64,000 bases of DNA from NCBI RefSeq assembly GCF_003751445.1, contig NZ_RJUU01000001.1:997001-1061000 (forward strand), written 5' to 3'. Both the position numbers and the translations under genes were made by a program. The notes under the pieces were generated by a model. The model did no database searches and was not told the DNA's origin. It saw only the letters and a program-made list of their open reading frames with translations. This document shows positions 33,687 to 57,744 of the stretch, piece by piece (the stretch's first letter is position 1; each line of letters starts with the position of its first letter). The DNA comes from Streptomyces sp. 840.1 (GTDB lineage Bacteria > Actinomycetota > Actinomycetes > Streptomycetales > Streptomycetaceae).

Positions 33687-33783
33687 CCCGTTGTCCGCCC
33701 GGCGCCTGCGGGCTCCCTGGCCACTGGGCCGGACGGGCGATGGCATCCTGGACCCCCGCGGCGGAATCAGGGAGGACTGCGCG

Positions 33784-34389
33784 ATGGCGACGAGCACTGC
33801 AGCGACACCGGCCCGGCCCATGCGCGCCGACGCGCGCCGCAATTACGACCGGCTGCTGGCCGAGGCCCGTACCGCCTTCGCTGAGCACGGCACGACGGCG
33901 TCCCTGGAGGATGTCGCGAGGCGCGCGGGGGTGGGGATCGGCACCCTGTACCGGCACTTCCCGACCCGGCACGCGCTGATGAGCGCCGTCTTCCAGGAGG
34001 CGGTGGCCGATCTGATCGCCCGCTCCCGGGAACTGGCCGGGGCGGAGCGGCCGTGCGACGCGCTGGTGGAGTGGCTGGGCACGATCATCACTCATGCGGG
34101 TGAGTACCGCGGGCTGGCGCAGGCCCTCATGTCGACCTGCCGGGACGAGACTTCGGCGCTGTCCCGGTGCAGTGTGCCGATGCGCCGGGCGGGTTCGGTC
34201 CTGCTGGCCCGTGCGCAGGCGGGCGGGGCGGTGCGGGCGAACGTGTCCATCGACGATCTGATGCAGCTCACCAACGCGATCGCGTTGGCCGCCGAGCAGT
34301 CGCCCGACGATCCGGGCCTGGCGGACCGGCTGCTGACACTGACGGTGCAGGGACTGGGCGCGGCACATCCGGGCCCCTCCGTGGACTGA
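33784..34389 (+). CDS. TetR-family transcriptional regulator
   Basis: The 201-aa protein has an N-terminal TetR helix-turn-helix (LEDVARRAGVGIGTLYRHFPTRHAL, about residues 41-65) and an all-helical ligand domain with one Cys pair region (MSTCRDETSALSRC). The AGGGAGGA site precedes the ATG at 33784. It follows the carboxylase alpha terminator, so it is transcribed on its own. Ligand and targets are unknown; a link with fatty-acid or carboxylase control is only suggested by position. A GGGGGC-AGC-GCCCCC hairpin follows at 34400-34416. Confidence 0.9.
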   Translation: MATSTAATPARPMRADARRNYDRLLAEARTAFAEHGTTASLEDVARRAGVGIGTLYRHFPTRHALMSAVFQEAVADLIARSRELAGAERPCDALVEWLGTIITHAGEYRGLAQALMSTCRDETSALSRCSVPMRRAGSVLLARAQAGGAVRANVSIDDLMQLTNAIALAAEQSPDDPGLADRLLTLTVQGLGAAHPGPSVD

Positions 34390-34455: not shown

Positions 34456-35421
34456 CTACCGGCGGCGCAGGTCCGCCACCCGTGCCCGGTCCGCCTGACC
34501 CTGCTCCGCCAGCACCGCGGAACCCCGTAACGGCTGCGGCCCGCCCCCGTGCGTGCGCCGCTGCCCCGGCAGGGGCATGTCCCGGCGGTTGCCCCGCCCG
34601 GATGCCCCCTGGTCGGACGAGGCCGGGGCCGGGGCGCCCGAGGGGCCCGCCACCGCGATCTGCACCCCCTGGTCCGCCAGGGCCTGCAGCTCGGCCGCCG
34701 CGCGGTCGTCGTGCGCGGCCGGTTCGTCCGTCACGAGCCGGGTGATGAGGTCGGTCGGCACCGTCTGGAACATGGTGTCGGAGCCGAGCTTGGTGTGATC
34801 GGCCAGGACCACCACCTCCCCGGCCGCCTGGACCAGGGCCCGGTCCACGCTCGCGGAGAGCATGTTGGACGTGGAGAGCCCGCGCTCGGCGGTGAGGCCG
34901 CTCCCGGACAGGAACGCCCGCGAGACCCGCAGCCCCTGGAGCGACTGCTCGGCCCCGCTGCCCACCAGCGCGTAGTTGGAGCCGCGCAGGGTGCCCCCGG
35001 TCATCACCACTTCCACCCGGTTGGCGTGGGCCAGGGCCTGGGCGACGAGCAGCGAGTTGGTGACCACGGTCAGACCGGGGACCCGCGCGAGCCGGCGGGC
35101 CAGCTCCTGCGTGGTCGTACCGGCGCCGACCACGATGGCCTCGCCCTCTTCGACGAGACCTGCGGCCAGATCGGCGATGGCCGTCTTCTCCGCGGTGGCG
35201 AGATGGGATTTCTGCGGAAAGCCGGACTCCCGCGTAAAACCGCCCGGCAAGACCGCACCGCCGTGCCGGCGGTCGAGGAGTCCTTCTGCCTCCAGTGCCC
35301 GCACGTCCCGCCGTACGGTCACTTCGGAGGTCTGGACGACGCGGGCGAGCTCACGGAGCGATACCGCCCCGTTGGCGCGCACCATTTCGAGGATCAATTG
35401 ACGACGTTCTGCAGCGAACAC
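34456..35421 (-). CDS. DeoR-family transcriptional regulator
   Basis: The 321-aa protein has the DeoR N-terminal helix-turn-helix (AVSLRELARVVQTSEVTVRRD, with R-R-D-V-R-A-L-E) and the ISOCOT-fold sugar-phosphate sensor (GAGTTTQELARRL, MTGGTLRG, KLGS near 245). DeoR proteins usually sense a phosphorylated sugar. A Ser/Pro/Arg-rich C-terminal tail of about 60 residues is unusual for the family. It lies close to punA, the mutase gene and, further on, deoC, so a role in nucleoside use is possible but unproven. Confidence 0.9.
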   Translation of the reverse strand: MFAAERRQLILEMVRANGAVSLRELARVVQTSEVTVRRDVRALEAEGLLDRRHGGAVLPGGFTRESGFPQKSHLATAEKTAIADLAAGLVEEGEAIVVGAGTTTQELARRLARVPGLTVVTNSLLVAQALAHANRVEVVMTGGTLRGSNYALVGSGAEQSLQGLRVSRAFLSGSGLTAERGLSTSNMLSASVDRALVQAAGEVVVLADHTKLGSDTMFQTVPTDLITRLVTDEPAAHDDRAAAELQALADQGVQIAVAGPSGAPAPASSDQGASGRGNRRDMPLPGQRRTHGGGPQPLRGSAVLAEQGQADRARVADLRRR

Positions 35422-37811: not shown

Positions 37812-37823
37812 CTACGCGCGTAG
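37812..37823. promoter_or_regulatory. CTACGCGCGTAG operator upstream of purine nucleoside phosphorylase
   Basis: A perfect 12-bp palindrome ends 25 bp before the GTG of punA. A TACGCT -10-like box follows at 37836-37841, seven bases before the start, so the palindrome overlaps the expected -35 region. The same 12-mer stands before deoC (45648) and add (56897). Confidence 0.75.
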
Positions 37824-37848
37824 GGAATCAGCGGTTACGCTCATCCGC

Positions 37849-38673
37849 GTGAACGCATCAGTTATTCCGGACCACATCCAGGGCGACCCGCGCGCCGCCG
37901 CCGCCGACGCCGCCGCCCGCCTGCGCGAGCTGACCGGTGCCGAGACCCACGACGTCGCACTCGTGATGGGCTCCGGCTGGGCACCCGCGGGCGATGCGCT
38001 CGGCATCCCGGAGGCCGAGTTCCCGGTGACCGCACTGCCGGGCTTTCCCGCCCCCGCCGTCCAGGGGCACGGCGGCACCATCCGCTCGTACCTGATCGGC
38101 GAGAAGCGCGCCCTGGTCTTCCTGGGCCGCACGCACTTCTACGAGGGCCGCGGCGTCGCCGCCGTGGCGCACGGGGTGCGCACCGCCGTCGCGGCGGGCT
38201 GCGGGACCGTCGTCCTGACGAACGGCTGCGGCGGGCTGCGCGAGGGCATGCGCCCCGGGCAGCCGGTCCTGATCAGCGACCACATCAACCTCACGGCGGC
38301 GTCGCCGATCATCGGCGCCAACTTCGTCGACCTGACCGACCTGTACTCGCCGCGGCTGCGCGCGCTGTGCAAGGAGGTCGACGAGACCCTCGAAGAGGGC
38401 GTGTACGTGCAGTTCCCCGGCCCGCACTACGAGACGCCGGCCGAGATCAACATGGTCCGTGCGATGGGCGGCGACCTGGTCGGCATGTCCACCGTCCTGG
38501 AGGCCATCGCGGCCCGGGAGGCCGGGGCCGAGGTCCTGGGCATCTCCCTGGTGACGAACCTGGCCGCCGGGCTCAGCGGGGAGCCGCTGAACCACGCGGA
38601 GGTACTCCAGGCGGGCCGCGACTCCGCGACCCGGATGGGCTCGCTGCTGGCGCGCCTGCTGGACCGCATCTGA
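37849..38673 (+). CDS. punA: Purine nucleoside phosphorylase
   Basis: PNP cleaves purine nucleosides with phosphate into base and (deoxy)ribose-1-phosphate. The 274-aa trimeric-type enzyme shows the phosphate-binding [17 protein letters not shown] and the signature [11 protein letters not shown], with [14 protein letters not shown] and [21 protein letters not shown] later; Glu and Asn in these contact the purine. The GTG at 37849 has no ribosome site and lies seven bases from a -10 box, so a leaderless mRNA is likely. The mutase gene follows at 87 bp. Confidence 0.94.
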
Positions 38674-38760: not shown

Positions 38761-40404
38761 GTGACCACGCAGGACCTCATCGCGCGGGCCAGGACCTGGC
38801 TCGACGAGGACCCCGACCCCGAGACCCGCGAGGAGCTGGCCAAGCTCATCGAGACCGAGGACCTCGACGAGCTCGCCGGCCGCTTCGCCGGCACCCTCCA
38901 GTTCGGCACCGCGGGCCTGCGCGGTGAGCTGGGCGCCGGCCCGATGCGGATGAACCGCGCCGTCGTCATCCGCGCCGCCGCCGGGCTCGCCGCCTACCTG
39001 AAGGACCAGGGGCAGGCGGGCGGCCTCGTCGTCATCGGCTACGACGCCCGCTACAAGTCCACCGACTTCGCCCGCGACACCGCCGCTGTGATGACCGGCG
39101 CCGGACTGCGGGCTGCGGTGCTCCCCCGCCCGCTCCCCACCCCCGTACTCGCCTACGCCATAAGGCACCTGGGCGCCGTCGCGGGTGTGGAGGTGACCGC
39201 GAGCCACAATCCGCCCCGCGACAACGGCTACAAGGTCTACCTCGGCGACGGCTCACAGATCGTCCCCCCGGCGGACGGGGAGATCGCCGCCGCGATCGCT
39301 GCCGTCGGCCCGCTGGACACCGTGCCCCGCCCCGACGACGGCTGGGAGACCCTGGGCGAGGAGGTGCTGGATGCCTATCTGGCGCGTACGGACGCGGTCC
39401 TGGCCGCAGGCTCGCCCCGTACCGCCCGCGTCGTCTACACGGCCATGCACGGCGTCGGCACCTCGGTGCTCACCGCGGCCTTCGACCGGGCGGGCTTCCC
39501 CGCCCCGGTCCTCGTCGCCGAACAGGCGGAGCCGGACCCCGCGTTCCCCACCGTCGCCTTCCCCAACCCGGAAGAGCCCGGCGCGATGGATCTCGCCTTC
39601 GCCACCGCGCGCCGCTCGGACCCCGACCTGGTGATCGCCAACGACCCGGACGCCGACCGCTGCGCCGTCGCCGTCCCGGACCCGGCGGCCGAGGGCGGCT
39701 GGCGGATGCTGCGCGGCGACGAGGTCGGCGCGCTGCTCGCCGCGCACCTCGTCGGACGCGGTGTCACCGGTGTCTTCGCCGAGTCGATCGTCTCCTCGTC
39801 CCTGCTCGGCCGGATCGCCGGGAAGGCGGGCCTCGGCTACGAGGAGACGCTGACCGGCTTCAAGTGGATCGCCCGGGTGGACGGTCTGCGCTACGGCTAC
39901 GAGGAGGCGCTCGGCTACTGCGTCGACCCGGACGGGGTCCGCGACAAGGACGGCATCACCGCCGCGCTGCTCGTCGCCGAACTCGCCTCCGTACTCAAGG
40001 AGCGGGGCCGCACCCTGCTCGACCTGCTGGACGACCTCGCGGTCGAGCACGGGCTGCACGCGACGGACCAGCTGTCGGTGCGGGTCGAGGACCTGTCCCT
40101 CATCGCGGACGCCATGCGCCGGCTGCGCGAGCAGCCGCCGGCCGCACTCGCGGGCCTCGCCGTCACCTCGGCCGAGGACCTGTCGAACGGCACCGAACTG
40201 CTGCCGCCCACCGACGGGCTCCGCTACCGGCTGGAGGGCGCCCGGGTGATCGTCCGCCCGAGCGGCACCGAGCCCAAGCTCAAGTGCTACCTGGAGGTCG
40301 TGGTGCCGGTCGCCTCGGCCGACGGGCTGCACACGGCCCGCGCACGGGGCACGGAACTGCTCGAAGGCATCAAGCGGGACCTGGCGGCCGCCGCCGGGAT
40401 CTGA
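38761..40404 (+). CDS. Phosphohexomutase/phosphopentomutase (alpha-D-phosphohexomutase family)
   Basis: The 547-aa enzyme has the four-domain phosphohexomutase layout: catalytic phosphoserine S148 in [14 protein letters not shown], metal loop [14 protein letters not shown], sugar loop region [10 protein letters not shown], and the C-terminal phosphate-binding [14 protein letters not shown]. Members convert glucose-1-P/6-P, mannose-P or ribose-1-P/5-P. Placement after PNP suggests it isomerises (deoxy)ribose-1-phosphate to the 5-phosphate needed by DeoC. The GTG has AAAGGCGGA upstream. Confidence 0.9.
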
Positions 40405-44893: not shown

Positions 44894-45532
44894 TCAGCCC
44901 GTCGCGCCCAGCACCACCAGGAGCACCGCGCCCACGGCTGCCGGTGCGATGACCTCGTACGCCCAGCGCACCGAGGCGACGACGTCGCCCGCCACGGGCT
45001 TGTCGCCCGCGCGTTCGGCCAGTTCGCGCAGGTCCACCACGGTCTGGTCGGCGCCCGCGGTCAGTGCCTTGGTGGCGCGGACGTCGGCGGTCACCGATGT
45101 CCGGCCGTACGGGTCGTCCGTCGCCTGGCGGGACTGGAGGCGGGCGGCCTTCTTGCGCCGGCGCAGGGAGACCGGGACCGCCCAGAGCTGGTACTTCGTG
45201 CCGGCCTGCGTGAACAGCTCGCTGGAGTAGCCCGCGCGCACGTTCGCCACGTCGGTCCACGGCAGCGTGATCGTGCGGAACGGGTTGCGGATCCGGATGC
45301 GCCGGTCGTTGGCGAACACCACCGGGCGCACGGTGAAGGCGATCACCAGGGGGACCACGGTCAGCAGCCCGGCCAGTGCCAGCCACGGCACCCGGCCCTC
45401 GCCCCGGATCGCGGCGTCCAGGCCGATCCAGAGGATGAGCAGGAGCAGCAGGGCGCCCCCGACCAGCCCGGCGGGCGACCGGAAGGTCCGGTCGGCGTAA
45501 GTGGGCTCGGCGGGTGGCGTGGGGCTCGTCAT
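44894..45532 (-). CDS. PH-domain membrane protein
   Basis: The 212-aa protein has two adjacent N-terminal transmembrane helices (AGLVGGALLLLLILWIGLDA and WLALAGLLTVVPLVIAFTV), a bacterial PH-like domain of about 80 residues (VVFANDRRIRIRNPFRTITL, then WTDVANVRAGYSSELFT) and a third helix at the end. Bacterial PH-domain proteins of this type occur in pairs or alone; function is unknown. The ATG at 45532 is divergent from deoC, so the gap also holds the deoC operator. Confidence 0.87.
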   Translation of the reverse strand: MTSPTPPAEPTYADRTFRSPAGLVGGALLLLLILWIGLDAAIRGEGRVPWLALAGLLTVVPLVIAFTVRPVVFANDRRIRIRNPFRTITLPWTDVANVRAGYSSELFTQAGTKYQLWAVPVSLRRRKKAARLQSRQATDDPYGRTSVTADVRATKALTAGADQTVVDLRELAERAGDKPVAGDVVASVRWAYEVIAPAAVGAVLLVVLGATG

Positions 45533-45647
45533 GAGCCCGATTCTGCCTGACAGGCGCAAGGGATGCGGGGGCGGCTTCCCGACCGCCGGGGGCACGGCGC
45601 CGCGGAGCCGGGCGATACGCGAACGGCATGGGCCCCTGTACAGGCCG

Positions 45648-45659
45648 CTACGCGCGTAG
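45648..45659. promoter_or_regulatory. CTACGCGCGTAG operator upstream of deoC
   Basis: The 12-bp palindrome is separated by one base from a TATGCT -10-like box (45661-45666) that lies six bases before the GTG of deoC. A second palindrome, CCTGTACAGG, lies just upstream at 45635-45644, in the expected -35 zone. Confidence 0.75.
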
Positions 45660-45672
45660 ATATGCTCATCTG

Positions 45673-46626
45673 GTGACCATGCCCACCACTGCACCTTCAT
45701 TCGTCGACGCGACGGCGTCCGACAGTGCGCTGCGCCGCTTCCTGCACGGGCTGCCCGGCGTCGACGCCGTCGGCCTCGAAGCGCGCGCCGCCTCGCTCGG
45801 AACCCGTTCGATCAAGACGACGGCCAAGGCGTACGCCATCGACCTCGCCATTTCGATGATCGACCTGACGACGCTGGAAGGCGCGGACACCCCGGGCAAG
45901 GTCCGGGCGCTCGCCGCCAAGGCCGTCAATCCCGATCCCACCGACCGCACGTCGCCGCGCACCGCCGCCGTCTGCGTCTATCCCGACATGGCGGCGACCG
46001 CGGTCGCCGCCCTGGCCGGCTCCGGCGTGAAGGTGGCGTCCGTCGCGACGGCCTTCCCGGCCGGCCGTGCCGCGCTCGACGTGAAGCTCGCGGACGTCCG
46101 CGACGCGGTGGCCGCCGGGGCCGACGAGATCGACATGGTGATCGACCGGGGCGCCTTCCTCTCCGGCCGCTATCTGAAGGTCTACGAGGAGATCCTCGCC
46201 GTGAAGGCGGAGTGCGGCTCGGCCCGGCTGAAGGTGATCTTCGAGACCGGCGAGCTGTCCACGTACGACAACATCCGGCGGGCCTCCTGGCTCGGGATGC
46301 TGGCGGGCGCGGACTTCATCAAGACGTCGACCGGCAAGGTCGGGGTCAACGCCACCCCCGCGAACACCCTGCTGATGCTGGAGGCGGTGCGTGACTTCCG
46401 GGCGCAGACCGGCGTCCAGATCGGCGTGAAGCCGGCCGGCGGCATCCGCACCTCCAAGGACGCGGTCAAGTTCCTGGTTCTGGTGAACGAGACGGCGGGC
46501 GAGGACTGGCTGGACAACCACTGGTTCCGCTTCGGCGCCTCCAGCCTGCTGAACGACCTGCTGATGCAGCGCCAGAAGCTCAGCACCGGCCGTTACTCCG
46601 GCCCCGATTACGTGACGGTGGACTGA
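45673..46626 (+). CDS. deoC: Deoxyribose-phosphate aldolase
   Basis: DeoC splits 2-deoxyribose-5-phosphate into acetaldehyde and glyceraldehyde-3-phosphate. The 317-aa protein has the DeoC TIM barrel with the Schiff-base lysine in FIKTSTGKVGVNA, the proton-relay lysine in VKPAGGIRTSKDA and the DMVIDRGAFLSG strand. The start at GTG 45673 (VTMPTT) or ATG 45679 is uncertain, but both lie close to the -10 box, so the mRNA is likely leaderless. An aldehyde dehydrogenase gene follows at five bp and can remove acetaldehyde. Confidence 0.94.
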   Translation: MTMPTTAPSFVDATASDSALRRFLHGLPGVDAVGLEARAASLGTRSIKTTAKAYAIDLAISMIDLTTLEGADTPGKVRALAAKAVNPDPTDRTSPRTAAVCVYPDMAATAVAALAGSGVKVASVATAFPAGRAALDVKLADVRDAVAAGADEIDMVIDRGAFLSGRYLKVYEEILAVKAECGSARLKVIFETGELSTYDNIRRASWLGMLAGADFIKTSTGKVGVNATPANTLLMLEAVRDFRAQTGVQIGVKPAGGIRTSKDAVKFLVLVNETAGEDWLDNHWFRFGASSLLNDLLMQRQKLSTGRYSGPDYVTVD

Positions 46627-46631
46627 TACCC

Positions 46632-48095
46632 ATGGCATCCGCATTCGAGTACGCACCCGCCCCCGAGTCGCGCTCCGTCGTCGACATCGCGCCCTCGTAC
46701 GGCCTGTTCATCGACGGTGAGTTCACCGAGGCCGCCGACGGCAAGGTCTTCAAGACCGTCTCGCCGAGCAGCGAGGAAGTCCTCTCCGAGGTCGCACGGG
46801 CCGGCGCCGAGGACGTGGACCGGGCCGTGAAGGCCGCCCGTCGCGCGTTCGAGAAGTGGTCGGCGCTGCCCGGCTCCGAGCGCGCCAAGTACCTGTTCCG
46901 GATCGCCCGGATCATCCAGGAGCGCTCCCGCGAGCTCGCCGTCCTGGAGACCCTGGACAACGGCAAGCCGATCAAGGAGACCCGCGACGCGGACCTCCCG
47001 CTGGTCGCCGCGCACTTCTTCTACTACGCGGGCTGGGCCGACAAGCTGGAGCACGCGGGGTTCGGCCGAAGGACGACAGACGGGAACGCCGGCGCGAACC
47101 CGCGTCCGCTCGGTGTGGCCGGCCAGATCATCCCGTGGAACTTCCCGCTCCTGATGCTCGCGTGGAAGATCGCGCCAGCACTCGCCACCGGCAACACGGT
47201 GGTCCTGAAGCCCGCCGAGACGACCCCGCTCTCCGCGCTCTTCTTCGCGGACATCTGCCGCCAGGCCGGGCTGCCCAAGGGCGTCGTCAACATCCTCACG
47301 GGCTACGGGGACGCCGGACAGGCCCTCGTCGAGCACGGGGACGTCAACAAGATCGCCTTCACCGGCTCGACCGCCGTGGGCAAGGCGATCGCCCGCAGCC
47401 TCGCGGGCACGGACAAGAAGGCCACCCTGGAGCTGGGCGGCAAGGGCGCCAACATCGTCTTCGACGACGCGCCGATCGACCAGGCCGTCGAGGGAATCGT
47501 CACCGGCATCTTCTTCAACCAGGGCCAGGTCTGCTGCGCGGGCTCGCGGCTCCTCGTCCAGGAGTCCGTCCAGGACGAGGTGCTGGACGCCCTCAAGCGC
47601 CGGCTGACCACGCTGCGCCTGGGCGACCCGCTGGACAAGAACACCGACATCGGCGCGATCAACTCCGCGGAGCAGCTCGCCCGGATCACCTCGCTCGTCG
47701 AGACCGGCGAGGCCGAGGGCGCCGAGCGCTGGTCCGCCCCCTGCGAACTCCCGTCCTCGGGGTACTGGTTCGCGCCGACGCTGTTCACGGGCGTCACCCA
47801 GGCGCACACCGTCGCCCGCGACGAGATCTTCGGCCCGGTGCTCTCCGTCCTGTCCTTCCGTACGCCGGACGAGGCGGTCGCCAAGGCCAACAACAGCCAG
47901 TACGGCCTGTCGGCCGGCATCTGGACGGAGAAGGGCTCCCGCATCCTCGCGGTGGCCAACAAGCTCCGGGCGGGCGTCGTCTGGGCCAACACGTTCAACA
48001 AGTTCGACCCGACCTCGCCGTTCGGCGGCTACAAGGAGTCGGGCTTCGGCCGCGAGGGCGGCCGACACGGTCTGGAGGCCTATCTCGATGTCTGA
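46632..48095 (+). CDS. NAD-dependent aldehyde dehydrogenase
   Basis: The 487-aa protein is a complete aldehyde dehydrogenase: NAD-binding GSTAVGKAIA, catalytic base in LELGGKGANIVF, catalytic cysteine in FFNQGQVCCAGSR, and EIFGPVLSVL near the C-terminus. Being 5 bp after deoC, it probably oxidises the acetaldehyde made by DeoC to acetate, or an aldehyde derived from it. Its last eight bases overlap the next gene, a half-length relative lacking the catalytic cysteine. Confidence 0.92.
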   Translation: MASAFEYAPAPESRSVVDIAPSYGLFIDGEFTEAADGKVFKTVSPSSEEVLSEVARAGAEDVDRAVKAARRAFEKWSALPGSERAKYLFRIARIIQERSRELAVLETLDNGKPIKETRDADLPLVAAHFFYYAGWADKLEHAGFGRRTTDGNAGANPRPLGVAGQIIPWNFPLLMLAWKIAPALATGNTVVLKPAETTPLSALFFADICRQAGLPKGVVNILTGYGDAGQALVEHGDVNKIAFTGSTAVGKAIARSLAGTDKKATLELGGKGANIVFDDAPIDQAVEGIVTGIFFNQGQVCCAGSRLLVQESVQDEVLDALKRRLTTLRLGDPLDKNTDIGAINSAEQLARITSLVETGEAEGAERWSAPCELPSSGYWFAPTLFTGVTQAHTVARDEIFGPVLSVLSFRTPDEAVAKANNSQYGLSAGIWTEKGSRILAVANKLRAGVVWANTFNKFDPTSPFGGYKESGFGREGGRHGLEAYLDV

Positions 48096-48981
48096 CCAGC
48101 GACTGAGTGTCTTCAAGACCTACAAGCTGTACGTCGGGGGCAAGTTCCCCCGCTCCGAGAGCGGCCGGGTGTACGAGGTGTCGGACTCCAAGGGCAAGTG
48201 GCTGGCCAACGCGCCCCAGTCCTCCCGCAAGGACGCCCGCGACGCGGTCGTCGCCGCCCGCAAGGCCTTCGGCGGCTGGTCGGGCGCGACCGCGTACAAC
48301 CGGGGCCAGGTCCTCTACCGCGTCGCGGAGATGCTGGAGGGCCGCCGCGAGCAGTTCGTCCGCGAGGTGGCGGAGGCCGAGGGGCTGTCGAAGTCCAAGG
48401 CCTCGGCCGTCGTGGACTCGGCGGTGGACCGCTGGGTCTGGTACGCGGGCTGGACCGACAAGATCGCCCAGGTCGTGGGCGGGGCGAACCCGGTCGCGGG
48501 GCCGTTCTTCAACCTCTCGACGCCGGAGCCGACCGGTGTGGTCACGGTGCTGGCCCCGCAGGAGTCCTCGTTCCTTGGCCTGGTCTCGGTGGTGGCCCCG
48601 GTGATCGCGACCGGCAACACCGCGGTCGTCATCGCCTCGGCCGACGCCCCGCTGCCCGCCCTGTCGCTGGGCGAGGTGCTGGCCACCTCGGACCTGCCGG
48701 GCGGGGTCGTCAACATCCTGTCCGGGAAGACCGCGGAGCTCGCCGCGCCGCTCGCCTCGCACCAGGACGTGAACGGCATCGACCTCACGGGGGCGGACGC
48801 GGATCTGGCGAAGGAGCTGGAGATCGCGGCGGCCGACAACCTGAAGCGCGTCGCCCGCCCGCCCCTGCCGGGCACCGACTGGTCGGCCGACCCGGGCACG
48901 CACCGGCTCACCGCGTTCCTGGAGACCAAGACGGTCTGGCACCCGACGGGCGCGCTGGGCGTGTCGGGCTCCTCGTACTGA
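48088..48981 (+). CDS. Half-length aldehyde dehydrogenase-like protein without catalytic cysteine
   Basis: The 297-aa protein matches the N-terminal NAD-binding half of aldehyde dehydrogenases (KLYVGGKFPRSESGR, YRVAEMLEGRREQF, then PTGVVTVLAPQ and GNTAVVIASADAPLPAL) but ends before the catalytic domain; neither the GQxC cysteine nor EIFGP is present. The frame is clean with a normal stop, overlapping the full enzyme by eight bases. It therefore looks like a maintained partner subunit, not a random truncation. The last 35 residues carry a distinct tail (HRLTAFLETKTVWHPTG). Confidence 0.88.
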   Translation: MSDQRLSVFKTYKLYVGGKFPRSESGRVYEVSDSKGKWLANAPQSSRKDARDAVVAARKAFGGWSGATAYNRGQVLYRVAEMLEGRREQFVREVAEAEGLSKSKASAVVDSAVDRWVWYAGWTDKIAQVVGGANPVAGPFFNLSTPEPTGVVTVLAPQESSFLGLVSVVAPVIATGNTAVVIASADAPLPALSLGEVLATSDLPGGVVNILSGKTAELAAPLASHQDVNGIDLTGADADLAKELEIAAADNLKRVARPPLPGTDWSADPGTHRLTAFLETKTVWHPTGALGVSGSSY

Positions 48982-50418: not shown

Positions 50419-51180
50419 TCAGGCCACCAGCTCGCCGAAGGACTCCTCCTCGTCACGGCCGAAGCTGAGGACCTCGTCCTCACGCAGCCGGCGGAGCGAC
50501 CGCCAGATGCTGGACTTCACCGTGCCGACACTGATGTCGAGGATGGCCGCGATCTCCGGGTCCGTACGGCCCTCGTAGTAGCGCAGGACCAGCATCGTGC
50601 GCTGGAGCTCCGGCAGTCGCGCCAGCGCCTGCCAGAGCACGGCACGCAGCTCGGTACCGCGCATCGCGTCCGTGTCGCCCGCCGTCTCCGGCAGCTCCTC
50701 GGTCGGGTATTCGTTCAGCTTGCGCCTGCGCCAGGCGCTGATGTGCAGATTCGTCATGGTGCGGCGCAGATAGCCGCCGACCGCCGCCTTGTCACTGATC
50801 CGGTCCCACGCCCGGTACGTCGAGAAGAGGGCGCTCTGCAGCAGGTCCTCGGCCTCGAACCGGTCGCCGGTCAGGTGATAGGCGGTGGCGTACAGGGAGG
50901 CGCGGCGTTCCCTGACGTAGGCCGTGAACACCGCTTCGGCGTCCTCGTCCCGCGCCGGGGCCTGCCGCTCCCCCGTGGCCTCCCCGTACGTGCTTCCCCC
51001 GTTGCTCCCGCCCGTTGGGGCGGGTGCGTCCACAACCGTCATGTACGACGGGTGCTGACGCCCAGCGCCGCGAACGCACCCCCGCCCGTTCAATGCGGCG
51101 CCGGACTTCTCTGCGGTCCGCCCGACGTCGTGGAGACGCGTGACAACTGCGCTTGCGGTGATGCTGTGAGTTGCGTTCAT
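50419..51180 (-). CDS. sigQ: SigE-type ECF sigma factor SigQ
   Basis: The 253-aa protein has ECF sigma region 2 (VFTAYVRERRASLYATAYHL, then FEAEDLLQSALFSTYRAWDRI) and region 4 (LPELQRTMLVLRYYEGRTDPE, then IAAILDISVGTVKSSIWRSLRRL), with a 90-residue variable N-terminus. In S. coelicolor sigQ is divergent from afsQ1 and is an AfsQ1 target; loss or overexpression affects antibiotic production. The ATG at 51180 follows GGGGGG. The gap to afsQ1 holds an AfsQ1-type box. Confidence 0.93.
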   Translation of the reverse strand: MNATHSITASAVVTRLHDVGRTAEKSGAALNGRGCVRGAGRQHPSYMTVVDAPAPTGGSNGGSTYGEATGERQAPARDEDAEAVFTAYVRERRASLYATAYHLTGDRFEAEDLLQSALFSTYRAWDRISDKAAVGGYLRRTMTNLHISAWRRRKLNEYPTEELPETAGDTDAMRGTELRAVLWQALARLPELQRTMLVLRYYEGRTDPEIAAILDISVGTVKSSIWRSLRRLREDEVLSFGRDEEESFGELVA

Positions 51181-51263
51181 CTCGCGCCCCCCGTCGGTGG
51201 AGTCCGTCCGTTCCTTGTGACAACGAGCTTGCCGGGGCAGTTTCATGGCGCTGTCCCCCGACT

Positions 51264-51279
51264 GTCACAGGCCTGTCAC
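51264..51279. promoter_or_regulatory. AfsQ1 box GTCAC-N6-GTCAC between sigQ and afsQ1
   Basis: GTCAC at 51264 and 51275 are separated by AGGCCT, six bases, exactly fitting the published GTnAC-N6-GTnAC consensus of AfsQ1. The site lies 84 bp upstream of the sigQ start and about 94 bp upstream of afsQ1, where it could control both. Confidence 0.82.
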
Positions 51280-51372
51280 AGGGCCCTGTGAGGACACGAT
51301 CAAGGGGTGCCCGACGCATAAGAGGGGACCAACTGTCGAACTAGGGCTCCCCCATGGGTCAGAATGACCAGC

Positions 51373-52050
51373 GTGCCTTTCCTGTTGCTGATCGAGGACG
51401 ACGACGCCATCCGCACGGCCCTCGAACTCTCGCTGTCACGCCAGGGCCACCGTGTGGCCACCGCGGCGACGGGAGAGGACGGCCTCAACCTGCTGCGAGA
51501 ACAGCGGCCCGACCTGGTCGTGCTGGATGTGATGCTGCCCGGAATCGATGGATTCGAGGTGTGCCGGCGCATCCGGCGCACCGACCAGTTGCCGATCATC
51601 CTGCTGACCGCGCGCAGCGACGACATCGACGTCGTGGTCGGGCTGGAGTCCGGTGCCGACGACTATGTGGTGAAACCCGTGCAGGGCCGGGTGCTCGACG
51701 CCCGGATCCGCGCGGTGCTGCGCCGGGGCGAGCGCGAGTCCACGGACTCCGCGACGTTCGGGAACGTGGTGATCGACCGGTCCGCCATGACCGTCACCAA
51801 GAACGGGGAGGATCTCCAGCTCACGCCGACCGAGCTGCGCCTCCTGCTCGAACTGAGCCGCCGCCCCGGCCAGGCCCTGTCCCGGCAGCAGTTGCTGCGC
51901 CTGGTCTGGGAGCACGACTACCTCGGTGACTCCCGGCTGGTGGACGCCTGCGTCCAGCGGCTGCGCGCGAAGGTGGAGGACGTGCCGTCCTCGCCGACCC
52001 TGATCCGTACCGTGCGGGGCGTGGGATACCGGCTGGACTCTCCGCAGTGA
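51373..52050 (+). CDS. afsQ1: Two-component response regulator AfsQ1
   Basis: The 225-aa OmpR-type regulator has receiver acidic residues in LLLIEDDDA, phospho-acceptor D52 (VVLDVMLPG), T and K switch residues (LLTARSD, DDYVVKPV) and a C-terminal winged helix (LTPTELRLLLELSRRPGQALS). With AfsQ2 it controls antibiotic and nitrogen genes in S. coelicolor on glutamate-containing medium. The GTG at 51373 gives the length I recall for the homologue; an ATG three codons earlier is possible. The stop overlaps the afsQ2 start (GTGA). Confidence 0.95.
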   Translation: MPFLLLIEDDDAIRTALELSLSRQGHRVATAATGEDGLNLLREQRPDLVVLDVMLPGIDGFEVCRRIRRTDQLPIILLTARSDDIDVVVGLESGADDYVVKPVQGRVLDARIRAVLRRGERESTDSATFGNVVIDRSAMTVTKNGEDLQLTPTELRLLLELSRRPGQALSRQQLLRLVWEHDYLGDSRLVDACVQRLRAKVEDVPSSPTLIRTVRGVGYRLDSPQ

Positions 52051-53585
52051 GCACGGCTGTGCGGCGGGGCCTGCGCGCCGGGCTCCGCTGGACCAGCCTG
52101 CGGTTGCGGCTCGTCGTCGTGTTCGCGCTGGTGGCGCTGACCGCCGCGGTATCCGCCTCCGGGATCGCGTACTGGCTGAACCGCGAGGCGGTGCTGACCC
52201 GTACCCAGGACTCGGCGCTCGGGGACTTCCGCCAGGAGATGCAGAACCGGGCGGCCTCGCTGCCGCCCCGCCCCACCAAGGACGACCTGGAGCACGCCGC
52301 CGCGCAGATGGCGAGCAGCAGCCCCGGTTACAGCGTGCTGCTGATCGACGAGCGCGATCCCGGCAAGCCGATCGTCGGCAACTCCGACGTGGACACCTTC
52401 ACCCGGGACAACGTGCCGGAGTCGCTGCGGAAGCAGGTCGCCAAGAAGCAGCCGGTGAAGGCGGGCAACAAGTACCAGTACCACGTGTTCTGGCAGCGGA
52501 CCTCGATCCGCGGCACCCCGTATCTCGTCGGCGGTACGAAGATCATCGGCGGTGGCCCGACCGGGTACATGCTCAAGTCCCTCGACCAGGAACGGCAGGA
52601 CCTGAACTCCCTCGCCTGGTCGCTGGGGATCGCCACCGCGCTCGCGCTCGTCGGCTCCGCGCTGCTCGCGCAGGCCGCGGCGACGACCGTGCTGCGTCCG
52701 GTCCAGCGGCTCGGTGACGCCGCCCGCAAGCTGGGCGAGGGCAAGCTGGACACCCGCCTGGTGGTGTCCGGGACCGATGAACTGGCCGATCTGTCAAGGA
52801 CGTTCAACAGGACGGCGAGTTCGCTGGAGAAGAAGGTCGCGGACATGACCGCGCGGGAGGAGTCCAGCCGCCGCTTCGTCGCCGACATGTCGCACGAGCT
52901 GCGCACCCCGCTCACCGCGATCACGGCGGTGGCCGAGGTGCTGGAGGACGAGGCCGACAGCCTCGACCCGATGATCGCGCCGGCCGTGCACCTGGTGGTC
53001 AGCGAGACCCGGCGGCTCAACGACCTGGTGGAGAACCTGATGGAGGTCACCCGCTTCGACGCGGGCACCGCCCGTCTCGTCCTGGACACCGTGGACGTGG
53101 CCGACCAGGTGACGGCCTGCATAGACGTGCGGGCCTGGCTGGACGCGGTGGATCTGGACGCCGAGCGCGGCATGATGGTCCGCCTCGATCCGCGCCGGCT
53201 CGACGTGATCCTGGCGAACCTGATCGGCAACGCGCTGAAGCACGGCGGCTCCCCGGTCCGGGTCACGGTCCGCACGGAGGGCGACGAGCTGGTCATCCAG
53301 GTCCGCGACCACGGCCCCGGCATCCCCGAGGACGTACTGCCCCACGTCTTCGACCGCTTCTACAAGGCCAGCGCGTCCCGGCCGCGCTCCGAGGGCAGCG
53401 GACTCGGGCTGTCGATCGCCATGGAGAACGCGCACATCCACGGCGGTGACATCACCGCCGCGAACTCGCCGGACGGCGACGGCGCCGTGTTCGTACTGCG
53501 CCTGCCGCGCGACGCGGAGGCGCTGAGCCGCAGCGCCGACGGACATGACGCGGAGATCCCGGACCAGGAGGACGACGCGACGTGA
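52047..53585 (+). CDS. afsQ2: Sensor histidine kinase AfsQ2
   Basis: The 512-aa membrane kinase has a first transmembrane helix at about residues 27-50, an extracytoplasmic sensor domain of about 140 residues, a second helix (ALALVGSALLAQAAATTVL), a HAMP linker (RPVQRLGDAARKLGEG), the phospho-acceptor H283 in MSHELRTPLTAI, and the ATP-binding N- and G-boxes (NLIGNALKHGG, DHGPGIPE, GSGLGLSIA). It phosphorylates AfsQ1. It overlaps afsQ1 by four bases and the downstream lipoprotein gene by four, showing strict operon coupling. Confidence 0.95.
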   Translation: MSTAVRRGLRAGLRWTSLRLRLVVVFALVALTAAVSASGIAYWLNREAVLTRTQDSALGDFRQEMQNRAASLPPRPTKDDLEHAAAQMASSSPGYSVLLIDERDPGKPIVGNSDVDTFTRDNVPESLRKQVAKKQPVKAGNKYQYHVFWQRTSIRGTPYLVGGTKIIGGGPTGYMLKSLDQERQDLNSLAWSLGIATALALVGSALLAQAAATTVLRPVQRLGDAARKLGEGKLDTRLVVSGTDELADLSRTFNRTASSLEKKVADMTAREESSRRFVADMSHELRTPLTAITAVAEVLEDEADSLDPMIAPAVHLVVSETRRLNDLVENLMEVTRFDAGTARLVLDTVDVADQVTACIDVRAWLDAVDLDAERGMMVRLDPRRLDVILANLIGNALKHGGSPVRVTVRTEGDELVIQVRDHGPGIPEDVLPHVFDRFYKASASRPRSEGSGLGLSIAMENAHIHGGDITAANSPDGDGAVFVLRLPRDAEALSRSADGHDAEIPDQEDDAT

Positions 53586-54199
53586 TACGCAGCGAAGGCC
53601 GGGGCCGACGCCTCGCCGCGGCGGTGGCCGGGGCCGTGCTGTGCGCGGCGCTGGCCGCGGGCTGCGGGATCAGGACGACCTCGGTGCCGGTCGACGCCGG
53701 GCCCGCGCCGTCCCGGGTGCCGTGCGAGACGCCCTCGCCGGACAGCACCGCCCAGCCGAGCCAGAGCATCGGCGCCGAGGTCTATCTCGTCTGCAACTCG
53801 CAGCTGGTCACGGTCGACCGCACGGTCGAGGTCCAGGAGGCGAAGGCCGGCCGGCTCACGCTGGCGGTCGCCCTCCTGAACGAGCTGCGCAAGGAGCCGC
53901 CGGCGCCCGAGCGGCAGGCGGGCTTCACCACGGACGTCCCCGCCACGCTGCGGGTCAGCGGCCCCCGCACGGGCGACCCGAAGGGTGCGCTGCGGCTCAG
54001 CGAGCAGCCGGAGGACCTGACGCCCGAGGCGCTGGCCCAGATCGTCTGCACGTACACGGAGAGCGATCCGCTCGTCCAGGACGGCACGGTGCTGCTCGGC
54101 GGCCCGGGGGCGTACGCGGCGCGCGGCTATCTGTGCACCGCCGAGACGAAGGCCAGCCCCAAGGCGGTCCCGACGCTGGGCGCGGTCCGGCTGTCGTGA
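53582..54199 (+). CDS. afsQ3: AfsQ-operon lipoprotein
   Basis: The 205-aa protein starts with a signal peptide and lipobox LAAGCG at about residue 28, then a domain with conserved cysteines (PCETP, LVCNSQ, IVCTYT, YLCTAE) that probably pair outside the cell. The gene overlaps afsQ2 by four bases, so its product is made with the kinase and may modulate sensing at the membrane; LpqB-type lipoproteins do this for MtrB. The homologue in S. coelicolor is called AfsQ3 as I recall; direct function is unproven. Confidence 0.88.
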   Translation: MIRSEGRGRRLAAAVAGAVLCAALAAGCGIRTTSVPVDAGPAPSRVPCETPSPDSTAQPSQSIGAEVYLVCNSQLVTVDRTVEVQEAKAGRLTLAVALLNELRKEPPAPERQAGFTTDVPATLRVSGPRTGDPKGALRLSEQPEDLTPEALAQIVCTYTESDPLVQDGTVLLGGPGAYAARGYLCTAETKASPKAVPTLGAVRLS

Positions 54200-55725: not shown

Positions 55726-56880
55726 TCAGCCTGCGACCGAGGTGGAAACGCTGGTCGCAGCGGTCTGCTCGAAGAGCCATTCGGACTTCAGCTCGGCGTA
55801 TCCGGGCTTGATGACGTCATTGATCATCGCCAGACGTTCATCGAAAGGAATGAATGCTGATTTCATCGCATTGACTGTGAACCACTGCATGTCGTCGAGC
55901 GCGTATCCGAATGTCTCGATCAGCTTCTCGAATTCCTGACTCATGCTCGTACCACTCATGAGCCTGTTGTCCGTATTCACGGTGGCCCTGAAGTGCAGCT
56001 TGCGCAGCAGCCCGATCGGGTGCTCGGCGTACGAGGCGGCGGCACCGGTCTGCAGGTTGGAGGTCGGGCAGAGCTCCAGCGGGATGCGCTTGTCCCGTAC
56101 GTAGGAGGCGAGGCGCCCCAGCTTCACACTGCCGTCCTCGGCGACCTCGATGTCGTCGATGATGCGGACGCCGTGACCGAGCCGGTCGGCGCCGCACCAC
56201 TGGATGGCCTGCCAGATCGACGGGAGTCCGAAGGCCTCGCCCGCGTGGATGGTGAAGTGGTTGTTCTCGCGCTTGAGGTACTCGAAGGCGTCGAGGTGCC
56301 GGGTGGGCGGGAAGCCGGCCTCGGCGCCCGCGATGTCGAAGCCGACGACGCCCTGTTCCCGGTAGCGGTTGGCGAGTTCGGCGATCTCCAGCGAACGGGC
56401 GGCGTGCCGCATCGCGGTGAGCAGGGCGCCCACCCGGATCCGGTTGCCGTCGCGGCGGGCGCGTGCCTCGCCCTCCCGGAAGCCGGCGTTGACCGCCTCG
56501 ACGACCTCTTCGAGGGTCAGCCCCGCTTCGAGGTGCTGCTCGGGGGCGTAGCGGATCTCGGCGTACACGACCCCGTCGGCCGCCAGGTCCTCGGCGCACT
56601 CGGCGGCGACCCGGACGAGCGCGTCACGGGTCTGCATGACGGCGCAGGTGTGGGCGAACGTCTCCAGGTACCGCTCCAGCGAACCGGAGTCGGCGGCTTC
56701 CCGGAACCAGATGCCGAGCTTGTCGGGCTCGCTCTCCGGGAGTCCTTCGTAACCGGTCGCCGCGGCGAGGTCGACGATCGTCCCGGGGCGCAGCCCGCCG
56801 TCGAGGTGGTCGTGGAGAAGGACCTTGGGCGCACGCCGGATCTGATCCTGGCCGGGCACATTGAGGGTCGGGCTCATCAT
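55726..56880 (-). CDS. add: Adenosine deaminase
   Basis: Adenosine deaminase converts (deoxy)adenosine to (deoxy)inosine, which PunA then cleaves. The 384-aa TIM-barrel enzyme binds zinc through HDHLDG (His pair near residue 23), HAGEAFG (with the catalytic Glu), and the [15 protein letters not shown] loop (Asp), and has GHGVRIIDD. The double ATG at 56880/56877 is preceded by a TAGAGT box six bases away, so a leaderless mRNA is likely. A CTACGCGCGTAG operator is 16 bp upstream. The last 60 codons are AT-richer than the rest. Confidence 0.95.
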
Positions 56881-56896
56881 CCACGCACTCTAGCGC

Positions 56897-56908
56897 CTAC
56901 GCGCGTAG
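56897..56908. promoter_or_regulatory. CTACGCGCGTAG operator upstream of add
   Basis: The same 12-bp palindrome as before punA and deoC lies 16 bp upstream of the add start, with TAGAGT as -10 box four bases closer to the gene. The alpha/beta-hydrolase gene is divergent, starting 74 bp away. Confidence 0.75.
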
Positions 56909-56982: not shown

Positions 56983-57744
56983 ATGGCACAGCGCGCACTA
57001 CCCCTGCCTGCTGCGAGGCTGGGACGGGCCGTCAGGACGGCCGGAGCATCGAGCGAGGTCAGCGGCGTGGTCCTGCTGCTCCCGGACGGCGAGCCGCATT
57101 CGTACCGCCGCCCCTCCCCCCTCTCGTACGCCCGCCAGCTCCCGCTGGCCCGCGCCCTGGCCCGCGCGGCCCGCGACGACGGCCTCACGGCGCACGTCGT
57201 CCACTACCGCTGCCGGGGCTGGAACACGACGGACGCCCAGCTCGCGGCGGACGCCGAATGGGCGGTCGACGAGGTGGTACGCCGCTACGGTGACGTCCCC
57301 GTCTGCCTGGCCGGCCACGGCATGGGCGGCCGGGCGGCCCTGCGCGCCGGCGGCCACCCGGCGGTCGGCGCGGTCCTCGCCCTGGCCCCCTGGCTGCCCG
57401 CCGACCCGGACGCCGAGCCGGAGCCGGTGAAACACCTGCTCGGGCGTCAGGTCCTGGTGGTGCACGGCACCACCGACGCGGGCGCCGACCCCGAACTCTC
57501 CTTCCGCCTCGCGGAACGCGCCAAGAAGTCCAACCGCGACACCTGCCGCTTCGAGGTCCACTCGGACGGCCACGCGCTGCGCCAGCACCACAGCGAAGTG
57601 GCCGCCCTGGCGGCGGACTTCATCCGCGGCTCGCTGTTCGGCCACGCCTATGCCCGCCCGGTGGCCGACGCACTGGCGGCCCCGCCGCCGCTGGGGCTGC
57701 GGATGCCGCTGGCGGCGGGATTCGGGAAGTCACTGGGGCACTGA
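56983..57744 (+). CDS. Alpha/beta-hydrolase fold protein with altered nucleophile elbow
   Basis: The 253-aa protein has the alpha/beta-hydrolase core, including a possible acid in HGTTDAGADPELS (near residue 165) and a terminal histidine (HSDGHALRQHH). The nucleophile elbow, normally GHSMGG, reads GHGMGG (in CLAGHGMGGRAAL): serine is replaced by glycine, so it should not be a normal esterase. The codon is GGC in CACGGCATGGGC. It starts 74 bp from add, divergent. A non-catalytic binding role or a different nucleophile is possible. Confidence 0.85.
   Translation: MAQRALPLPAARLGRAVRTAGASSEVSGVVLLLPDGEPHSYRRPSPLSYARQLPLARALARAARDDGLTAHVVHYRCRGWNTTDAQLAADAEWAVDEVVRRYGDVPVCLAGHGMGGRAALRAGGHPAVGAVLALAPWLPADPDAEPEPVKHLLGRQVLVVHGTTDAGADPELSFRLAERAKKSNRDTCRFEVHSDGHALRQHHSEVAALAADFIRGSLFGHAYARPVADALAAPPPLGLRMPLAAGFGKSLGH

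Follow-up and report, generated by a model that had tools for sequence, protein, structure and literature searches.

A near-invariant palindrome, predicted to be an operator, at nucleoside uptake and recycling promoters of the Streptomycetaceae

The PurR regulons of Escherichia coli (LacI family) and Bacillus subtilis are the closest described counterparts of the system reported here. In these regulons, one type of operator serves de novo purine genes together with uptake and salvage genes, and the palindrome lies inside the promoters. The deo regulons, governed by DeoR and CytR in E. coli and by DeoR in B. subtilis, have deoC, deoA, the purine nucleoside phosphorylase (PNP) gene and cdd among their targets, with contiguous palindromes near the promoters. 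In Streptomyces, XdhR, AllR and PecS control the breakdown of purine bases or allantoin, or respond to urate, and we know of none of the three that binds the palindrome described below. NupR of Bacillus thuringiensis, a member of the GntR/HutC group, is reported to be a dedicated nucleoside-permease regulator (PMC9430930).

We have found a 12-bp palindrome, CTACGCGCGTAG, that shares features with each of these systems. As in PurR regulons, a single operator type is found on de novo purine genes and on uptake and salvage genes, positioned inside promoters, and the CG step at its center is also seen in LacI-type operators. It departs from PurR regulons in having CTACGCGCGTAG instead of purine boxes and in including secreted nuclease-type and deo genes. 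The deo targets deoC, deoA, PNP and cdd recur, the last as part of an importer operon, and the palindrome is likewise contiguous and close to promoters. Unlike in deo regulons, however, the genes are distributed over several operons in 38 kb, purSQL is included, and the local DeoR-family protein is neither an equivalog of E. coli DeoR nor tied to the operator. XdhR, AllR and PecS occur in the same organisms and have a purine- or urate-related theme in common with it. NupR belongs to a different phylum and appears to have a smaller scope (PMC9430930). The operator and its regulon are akin to the PurR and DeoR kinds, with a sequence of their own and a wider target set. No description of this operator, or of any nucleoside or purine operator of Streptomyces, was found in a mostly open-licence literature, and this is not proof of novelty because subscription papers lay mostly outside the search. 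In three Streptomyces regulator papers that contain CTACGCG, it is part of primers.

We interpret the 12-mer, with a probability of about 0.7, as the operator of a dimeric regulator, probably a repressor encoded outside the cluster, that would govern a PurR-like purine-supply regulon.

Occurrence and conservation of the palindrome

The window is the whole stretch of DNA that was analysed, 64,000 nucleotides in length. The first-pass annotation had noted three exact copies of the 12-mer in the window and none besides, and had argued against chance; a scan of the whole window bore out the count (Table 1), the only two further matches having two mismatches each. The 8,839,408-base genome (G000, four contigs) contains four exact copies, compared to two for the reversed control, and all four lie inside 38 kb, in the nucleoside cluster and not scattered. 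The fourth copy (C1:1072287) is located 11 kb past the end of the window, before a nucleoside ABC-transporter ATPase gene, and a one-mismatch copy (C1:1067663) precedes the thymidine/pyrimidine-nucleoside phosphorylase gene, deoA; both escaped the first-pass annotation because they lie beyond the window. In this outer region, the ABC ATPase gene forms an importer operon with two permease genes and the cytidine deaminase gene, and a gene for a PnrA-like (Bmp) binding protein lies upstream.

Table 1. Positions of the operator copies, their candidate promoter elements and neighboring genes in the window.
Feature	Position	Strand	Remarks
TetR-family regulator	33691..34389	+	PF00440
DeoR/GlpR-type regulator	34456..35421	-	PF00455 and PF08220
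Operator 1, CTACGCGCGTAG	37812..37823	.	Before purine nucleoside phosphorylase
Candidate -10 TACGCT, PNP promoter	37836..37841	+	12 bp past operator, 7 bp before GTG 37849; leaderless
Purine nucleoside phosphorylase	37849..38673	+	TIGR01698, 319.5 bits vs cut-off 302.6
Phosphoglucomutase/phosphomannomutase-family protein	38761..40404	+	PF02878, PF02879, PF02880, PF00408
Divergent bPH_6-domain gene, just downstream of operator 2 on the minus strand	44894..45700 or shorter	-	bPH_6 domain
Operator 2, CTACGCGCGTAG	45648..45659	.	Before deoC
Candidate -10 TATGCT, deoC	45661..45666	+	1 bp past operator, 6 bp before GTG 45673; leaderless
Deoxyribose-phosphate aldolase DeoC	45673..46626	+	TIGR00126, above cut-off (scanned from 45628)
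Aldehyde dehydrogenase downstream of deoC	46632..48095	+	PF00171
Second aldehyde-dehydrogenase-family protein, overlaps preceding gene	48088..48981	+	PF00171
Adenosine deaminase	55726..56880	-	PF00962; NF006847, 642.4 bits vs cut-off 412
Candidate -10 TAGAGT, adenosine deaminase	56887..56892	-	4 bp from operator, 6 bp before ATG 56880; leaderless
Operator 3, CTACGCGCGTAG	56897..56908	.	Before adenosine deaminase
Divergent hydrolase-family gene, downstream of operator 3 on the plus strand	56983..57744	+	Hydrolase_4

The phosphoglucomutase/phosphomannomutase-family gene is probably co-transcribed with PNP, and its product may fill the role of a phosphopentomutase. Both aldehyde dehydrogenase genes are probably carried on the deoC transcript. 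Between deoC and the adenosine deaminase (ADA) gene, positions 50419-54199 encode a sigma factor, a response regulator, a histidine kinase and a Germane-domain protein, a region that we take to resemble afsQ1-afsQ2-sigQ of S. coelicolor; its response regulator is 85-95% identical in 19/20 other family genomes where found. No Rfam match was obtained in the window or in the L016 region.

The exclusion of chance rests on the clustering of the genomic copies and on two further comparisons. The 12-mer occurs 46 times in 818,632 bases from 21 genomes, where the best of 119 other palindromes of the same composition reached six copies and their median was zero, and it occurs 142 times in 80 named Streptomyces loci (1.51 Mb), where the reversed control was absent. 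Sites with at most one mismatch were not enriched in G000 (23 vs. 32 for the reversed control), and the corresponding counts of 25 vs. 33 in G009, 17 vs. 10 in G012 and 18 vs. 19 in G016 were not above control in every genome. Near-copies are therefore considered below only where conservation supports them.

The family was taken to be Streptomycetaceae on the basis of the nearest named loci, which belong to Streptomyces. Exact copies are present in 60 of 61 family genomes, with one to five in each (reversed control, 0 to 3). In a phylum-wide sample of 198 genomes, all eight of the same genus have an exact site, and among the other 190 there are five, with one copy each. In order to compare the cluster, regions of about 40 kb adjoining the DeoR orthologue (shorter at contig ends) were examined in 20 family genomes and the window's own. 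Sites with at most one mismatch occupy the PNP promoter in 20/21 genomes (15 exact), the deoC promoter in 20/20 (8 exact) and the ADA promoter in 18/18 (17 exact). The same threshold was reached at the ABC ATPase gene in only 6/16 genomes and at deoA in only 4/17, and the Bmp gene displays CTACGCGCGTTA or a similar form, with one or two mismatches, in 15/16 (the region of G015 being incomplete there). Starts of control genes have no site with two mismatches or fewer (CDD, 0/17; DeoR, 0/21; phosphohexomutase, 0/21; ALDH1, 0/20). Where gene order has been rearranged (G004, G005 and G006), the palindrome has moved together with its gene. In the named Streptomyces loci, the site is exact at PNP in 80/80 and exact at deoC, at one position, in 61/62, with two mismatches in the remaining one. 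Beyond the family, eight PNP and six deoC promoters of outgroup genomes lack any copy with up to two mismatches (0/14).

One site is thus found, above chance, at the promoters of functionally linked, separately transcribed genes. As judged from sequence, it is a near-invariant operator on Streptomyces nucleoside uptake and recycling promoters and is common to the family Streptomycetaceae. The nucleoside regulon with a putative repressor that the first-pass annotation had postulated is strongly supported in its core by this conservation in related species.

Position of the palindrome within the promoters

The longest deoC reading frame begins at 45628, upstream of the operator, and GTG 45673 was taken as the start because conservation points there. 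The first-pass annotation had placed every copy 16-25 bp from a start codon, which is accurate for PNP (25 bp) and ADA (16 bp); for deoC the distance is 13 bp to the GTG and 19 bp to ATG 45679.

The -10 hexamers of Streptomyces take the form TANNNT. A hexamer of this form begins 1 bp past the operator at deoC, with the start codon 4-7 bp further on, in 20/20 genomes, and 4 bp past it at ADA, with the same spacing to the start codon, in 17/19. At PNP it lies 10-13 bp past the operator, with the start codon 5-7 bp on, in 15/21 genomes. In these proportions, the position of the operator relative to the core promoter is conserved. At deoA, the TAG of the operator doubles as the start of the hexamer TAGAGT, and the operator's last bases form the hexamer of the Bmp gene. 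If the candidate hexamers are right, transcripts begin at or next to the start codon, i.e., they are leaderless, and the operator spans about -37 to -14. The operator therefore appears to be located inside the core promoter of leaderless genes, as would be expected for a repressor operator. In the leader of the Bmp gene (L016:12468-12527, minus strand), a GCGCC...GGCGC inverted repeat follows soon after the operator in several genomes.

A promoter element contacted by RNA polymerase carrying an alternative sigma factor could also account for the position between -35 and -10 and for the way in which the last bases run into the -10 hexamer in the deoA and Bmp promoters. However, a sigma element would not allow the distance to the -10 hexamer to vary from promoter to promoter (1, 4 or 10-13 bp), and the perfect two-fold symmetry and the presence of a separate TANNNT hexamer also speak against it, such that we give the sigma-factor reading hardly any credence. 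The distance between operator and hexamer varies between promoters but stays almost constant at each of them, which is most simply explained by steric repression. The operator sits in the spacer or on the -35 or -10 region of its target promoters and, according to the repressor model, the bound protein would for that reason block RNA polymerase.

Targets outside the cluster and the scope of the regulon

Outside the cluster, 66 sites with at most one mismatch were collected from four genomes that represent three genera (G000 and G009 being congeneric), and 63 of these were taken in, the three left out all being in G016. Seven groups of sites are shared, at orthologous positions, by at least three of the four genomes. 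Near-copies at a xanthine/uracil permease gene, at purS-purQ-purL (purSQL), which is divergent from lsr2, and at rpoB were each found in 4/4 genomes and three genera. Four other near-copies were found in 3/4 genomes each, namely those at genes for a 5'-nucleotidase-type protein, an ExeM/NucH-like extracellular nuclease (its score falls under the curated cut-off), a secreted protein containing a nuclease-type GmrSD_C domain, and a carbon-nitrogen hydrolase. For four of the seven recurrent groups, the sites come from just two genera. Two genomes of one genus each have two sites at a 2',3'-cyclic-nucleotide phosphodiesterase-type gene, and the interval between MarR and GH25-lysozyme genes has a near-copy in two of the four genomes. 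Under random placement, about 0.005 genes would be common to three or more genomes and 1.2 to two or more, in a model that assumes 5,500 genes, treats the genomes as unrelated and uses 22 instead of 21 sites for G009.

Among the matches listed, 17 exact copies lie off-cluster in other genomes. Seven of them precede purN, at loci of two further genera; the identity of purN was established by Pfam in two cases and by the same protein sequence in five. Another four (L193, L195, L196 and L200; one genus) precede the gene for a secreted protein of ~490-584 aa. The others comprise one at a HAD hydrolase gene, one at PNP on a contig of its own, one in the first codons of a second adenosine deaminase, one in a long inverted repeat and two within listed ORFs, one of these near the start of a secreted protein. 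One of the ~490-584 aa secreted proteins was scanned and was found to have a putative Ig domain and a weak InhA-like MAM match.

A half-site scan of two small genomes, in which an autoregulated regulator was sought, produced 21 and 25 hits vs. 6 and 12 for the reversed control, with exact copies counted twice among the hits. It added single cases at genes for an endonuclease/exonuclease/phosphatase-family protein, a PLD-family secreted protein, an NCS1 permease and a secreted acid phosphatase, the last three in one genome each. A TetR gene divergent from the secreted acid phosphatase gene (L330) has a half-site ~255 bp upstream.

The sites at rpoB and the GH25-lysozyme gene stand apart from the purine/nucleoside theme. 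The rpoB leader carries GTACGCGCGTAG (G000:C1:1351702, L007; also L186, L168 and L157), 29 bp before the TTG of the AASRNAS frame, and the sequence between site and gene hardly differs among the four genomes, which span three genera. This site may be a purine link to the supply of RNA polymerase or just part of a conserved leader. Protein constraint may explain both the rpoB and the GmrSD_C sites, because both touch or neighbor conserved coding sequence. At L014, L176, L163 and L207, a near-copy or copy falls within the first codons of the GmrSD_C protein (signal peptide YAR) or the second adenosine deaminase, and the operator therefore seems to be embedded in coding sequence there. The genes for an amidohydrolase (hydantoinase-like, G000 only) and the carbon-nitrogen hydrolase have CTACGTGCGTAG-like palindromes (L151, L170 and L188), two of them with longer symmetric flanks, and these may serve as the operator of a related but distinct regulator.

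In the manner of a PurR regulon, the operator is found on de novo purine genes (purSQL near-copies and purN exact copies) and on purine transport genes (permease, importer ATPase and Bmp sites). The scope of nucleoside catabolism given by the first-pass annotation is appropriate for the core regulon and is probably too narrow for the whole, in view of the near-copies at purSQL, permease, 5'-nucleotidase and nuclease-type genes and the exact copies at purN. The targets would together form one purine and nucleoside supply path, beginning with secreted nuclease-type proteins, nucleotidases, a nucleoside ABC importer and a nucleobase permease, and continuing through adenosine and cytidine deaminases, PNP, thymidine phosphorylase, DeoC and purSQL, with purN in some genera. 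One study notes a higher joint abundance of adenosine deaminase and three putative nucleases in S. coelicolor than in S. lividans (PMC7244524), which is circumstantially in line with joint control.

The identity of the signal depends on how these sites are weighed. The strongest and most conserved sites are all on catabolic genes, and near-copies are found on the pyrimidine gene deoA and on the carbon-nitrogen hydrolase gene (with the amidohydrolase nearby in G000), as would be the case in a classical deo-type catabolic regulon whose repressor is released by a nucleoside or deoxyribose 5-phosphate and in which the purine-synthesis sites are incidental or have another reader. A nucleoside-induced repressor explains deoC, deoA and ADA. 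It fails to explain purSQL and purN, since neither the purSQL near-copies (in all four genomes) nor the exact purN copies (seven loci) have a place in a purely catabolic switch, and we consider the classical deo-type regulon unlikely, albeit the most credible of the competing accounts. Because scavenging and synthesis genes share the operator, we infer a purine-type corepressor rather than simple nucleoside induction, and the PurR-like protein would accordingly release DNA when purines run low. On the other side, nucleoside induction fits better for deoC, deoA and the carbon-nitrogen hydrolase, none of which supplies purine.

Candidate regulators and significance

Four regulator candidates, one DeoR, one TetR and two MarR proteins, were compared by sequence and none was supported. 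The regulator is most likely encoded outside this cluster. The first-pass annotation had put forward the local DeoR and TetR proteins as candidate repressors while noting that neither has the motif at its own promoter; the latter observation is correct, and neither candidate is supported.

The DeoR protein has an orthologue in 26/26 family genomes searched and is encoded 2.2-3.3 kb from PNP in 19/21 regions, the other two distances being 6.3 kb (G005) and 8.0 kb (G008), and the deo genes of E. coli are controlled by a DeoR. However, its promoter has no site with up to two mismatches in any of 21 family genomes or 80 named loci, and a different sequence is conserved there. Autoregulation is common among regulators and is not obligatory. 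Four outgroup DeoR orthologues (57-69% identical overall) have the recognition-helix stretch SEVTVRRD without any change, an argument of only moderate weight because the stretch may be common to DeoR proteins. The five outgroup DeoR regions have no site with at most one mismatch and four single sites with two, and the outgroup PNP and deoC promoters lack the motif, as described above. Neither PNP nor deoC occurs near the outgroup DeoR genes within regions of 18-20 kb, and two of these DeoR genes adjoin sugar-type ABC transporters. The local protein scored 70.9 bits against the NCBIfam model of E. coli DeoR, far under the cut-off of 244; neither a DeoR equivalog near the operators nor an operator at the deoR promoter, as expected of a deo regulon, was thus found. 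Two papers naming the S. coelicolor locus tag that we take to be this DeoR concern other matters. Altogether, it is improbable that the local DeoR protein reads the operator.

The remaining candidates are the adjacent TetR protein and the MarR proteins encoded beside regulon members. The TetR gene adjoins DeoR in 70 of 80 named, closely related loci. It is in place in only 4 of 21 family genomes (the G019 contig ends before it), PNP and deoC still carry the site in family genomes where it is not in place, and its promoter has no site in 69/69 cases. The MarR gene beside the GH25 lysozyme gene has a site with at most one mismatch within 350 bp upstream in 7/18 genomes; a search at E<=1e-30 did not recover its product in 6/24 genomes, all six of them motif-bearing, and it was rejected on account of this absence. 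The MarR gene beside the nucleobase (xanthine/uracil) permease gene is present in 24/24 genomes and has no site with up to two mismatches within 300 bp upstream in any of the 24; it was rejected because its own promoter bears a different conserved element. That element (L367-L390), of a TTAG...TAATGA...CTAA-like form, overlaps the promoter across the 24 family genomes and is likely a separate MarR operator. We regard it as very improbable that the TetR protein or either MarR protein is the regulator.

The PurR-like reading of the operator, in which a single protein would serve every site, can be extended to one master regulator, restricted to the Streptomycetaceae, that would connect the digestion of external DNA and RNA, via the 12-bp operator, to uptake and salvage and finally to de novo purine synthesis. 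We place the odds of this extension just short of even. The operator can serve as bait for isolating its regulator and provides a list of targets. Growth, sporulation and antibiotic production are all influenced by purine supply, which determines the levels of GTP and ppGpp and of nucleotide precursors. If secreted nucleases, salvage and synthesis are controlled together, the recycling of DNA from lysed hyphae becomes open to direct testing. The master regulator, if it exists, would couple the reuse of nutrients released by lysed hyphae with the provision of nucleotides during development.
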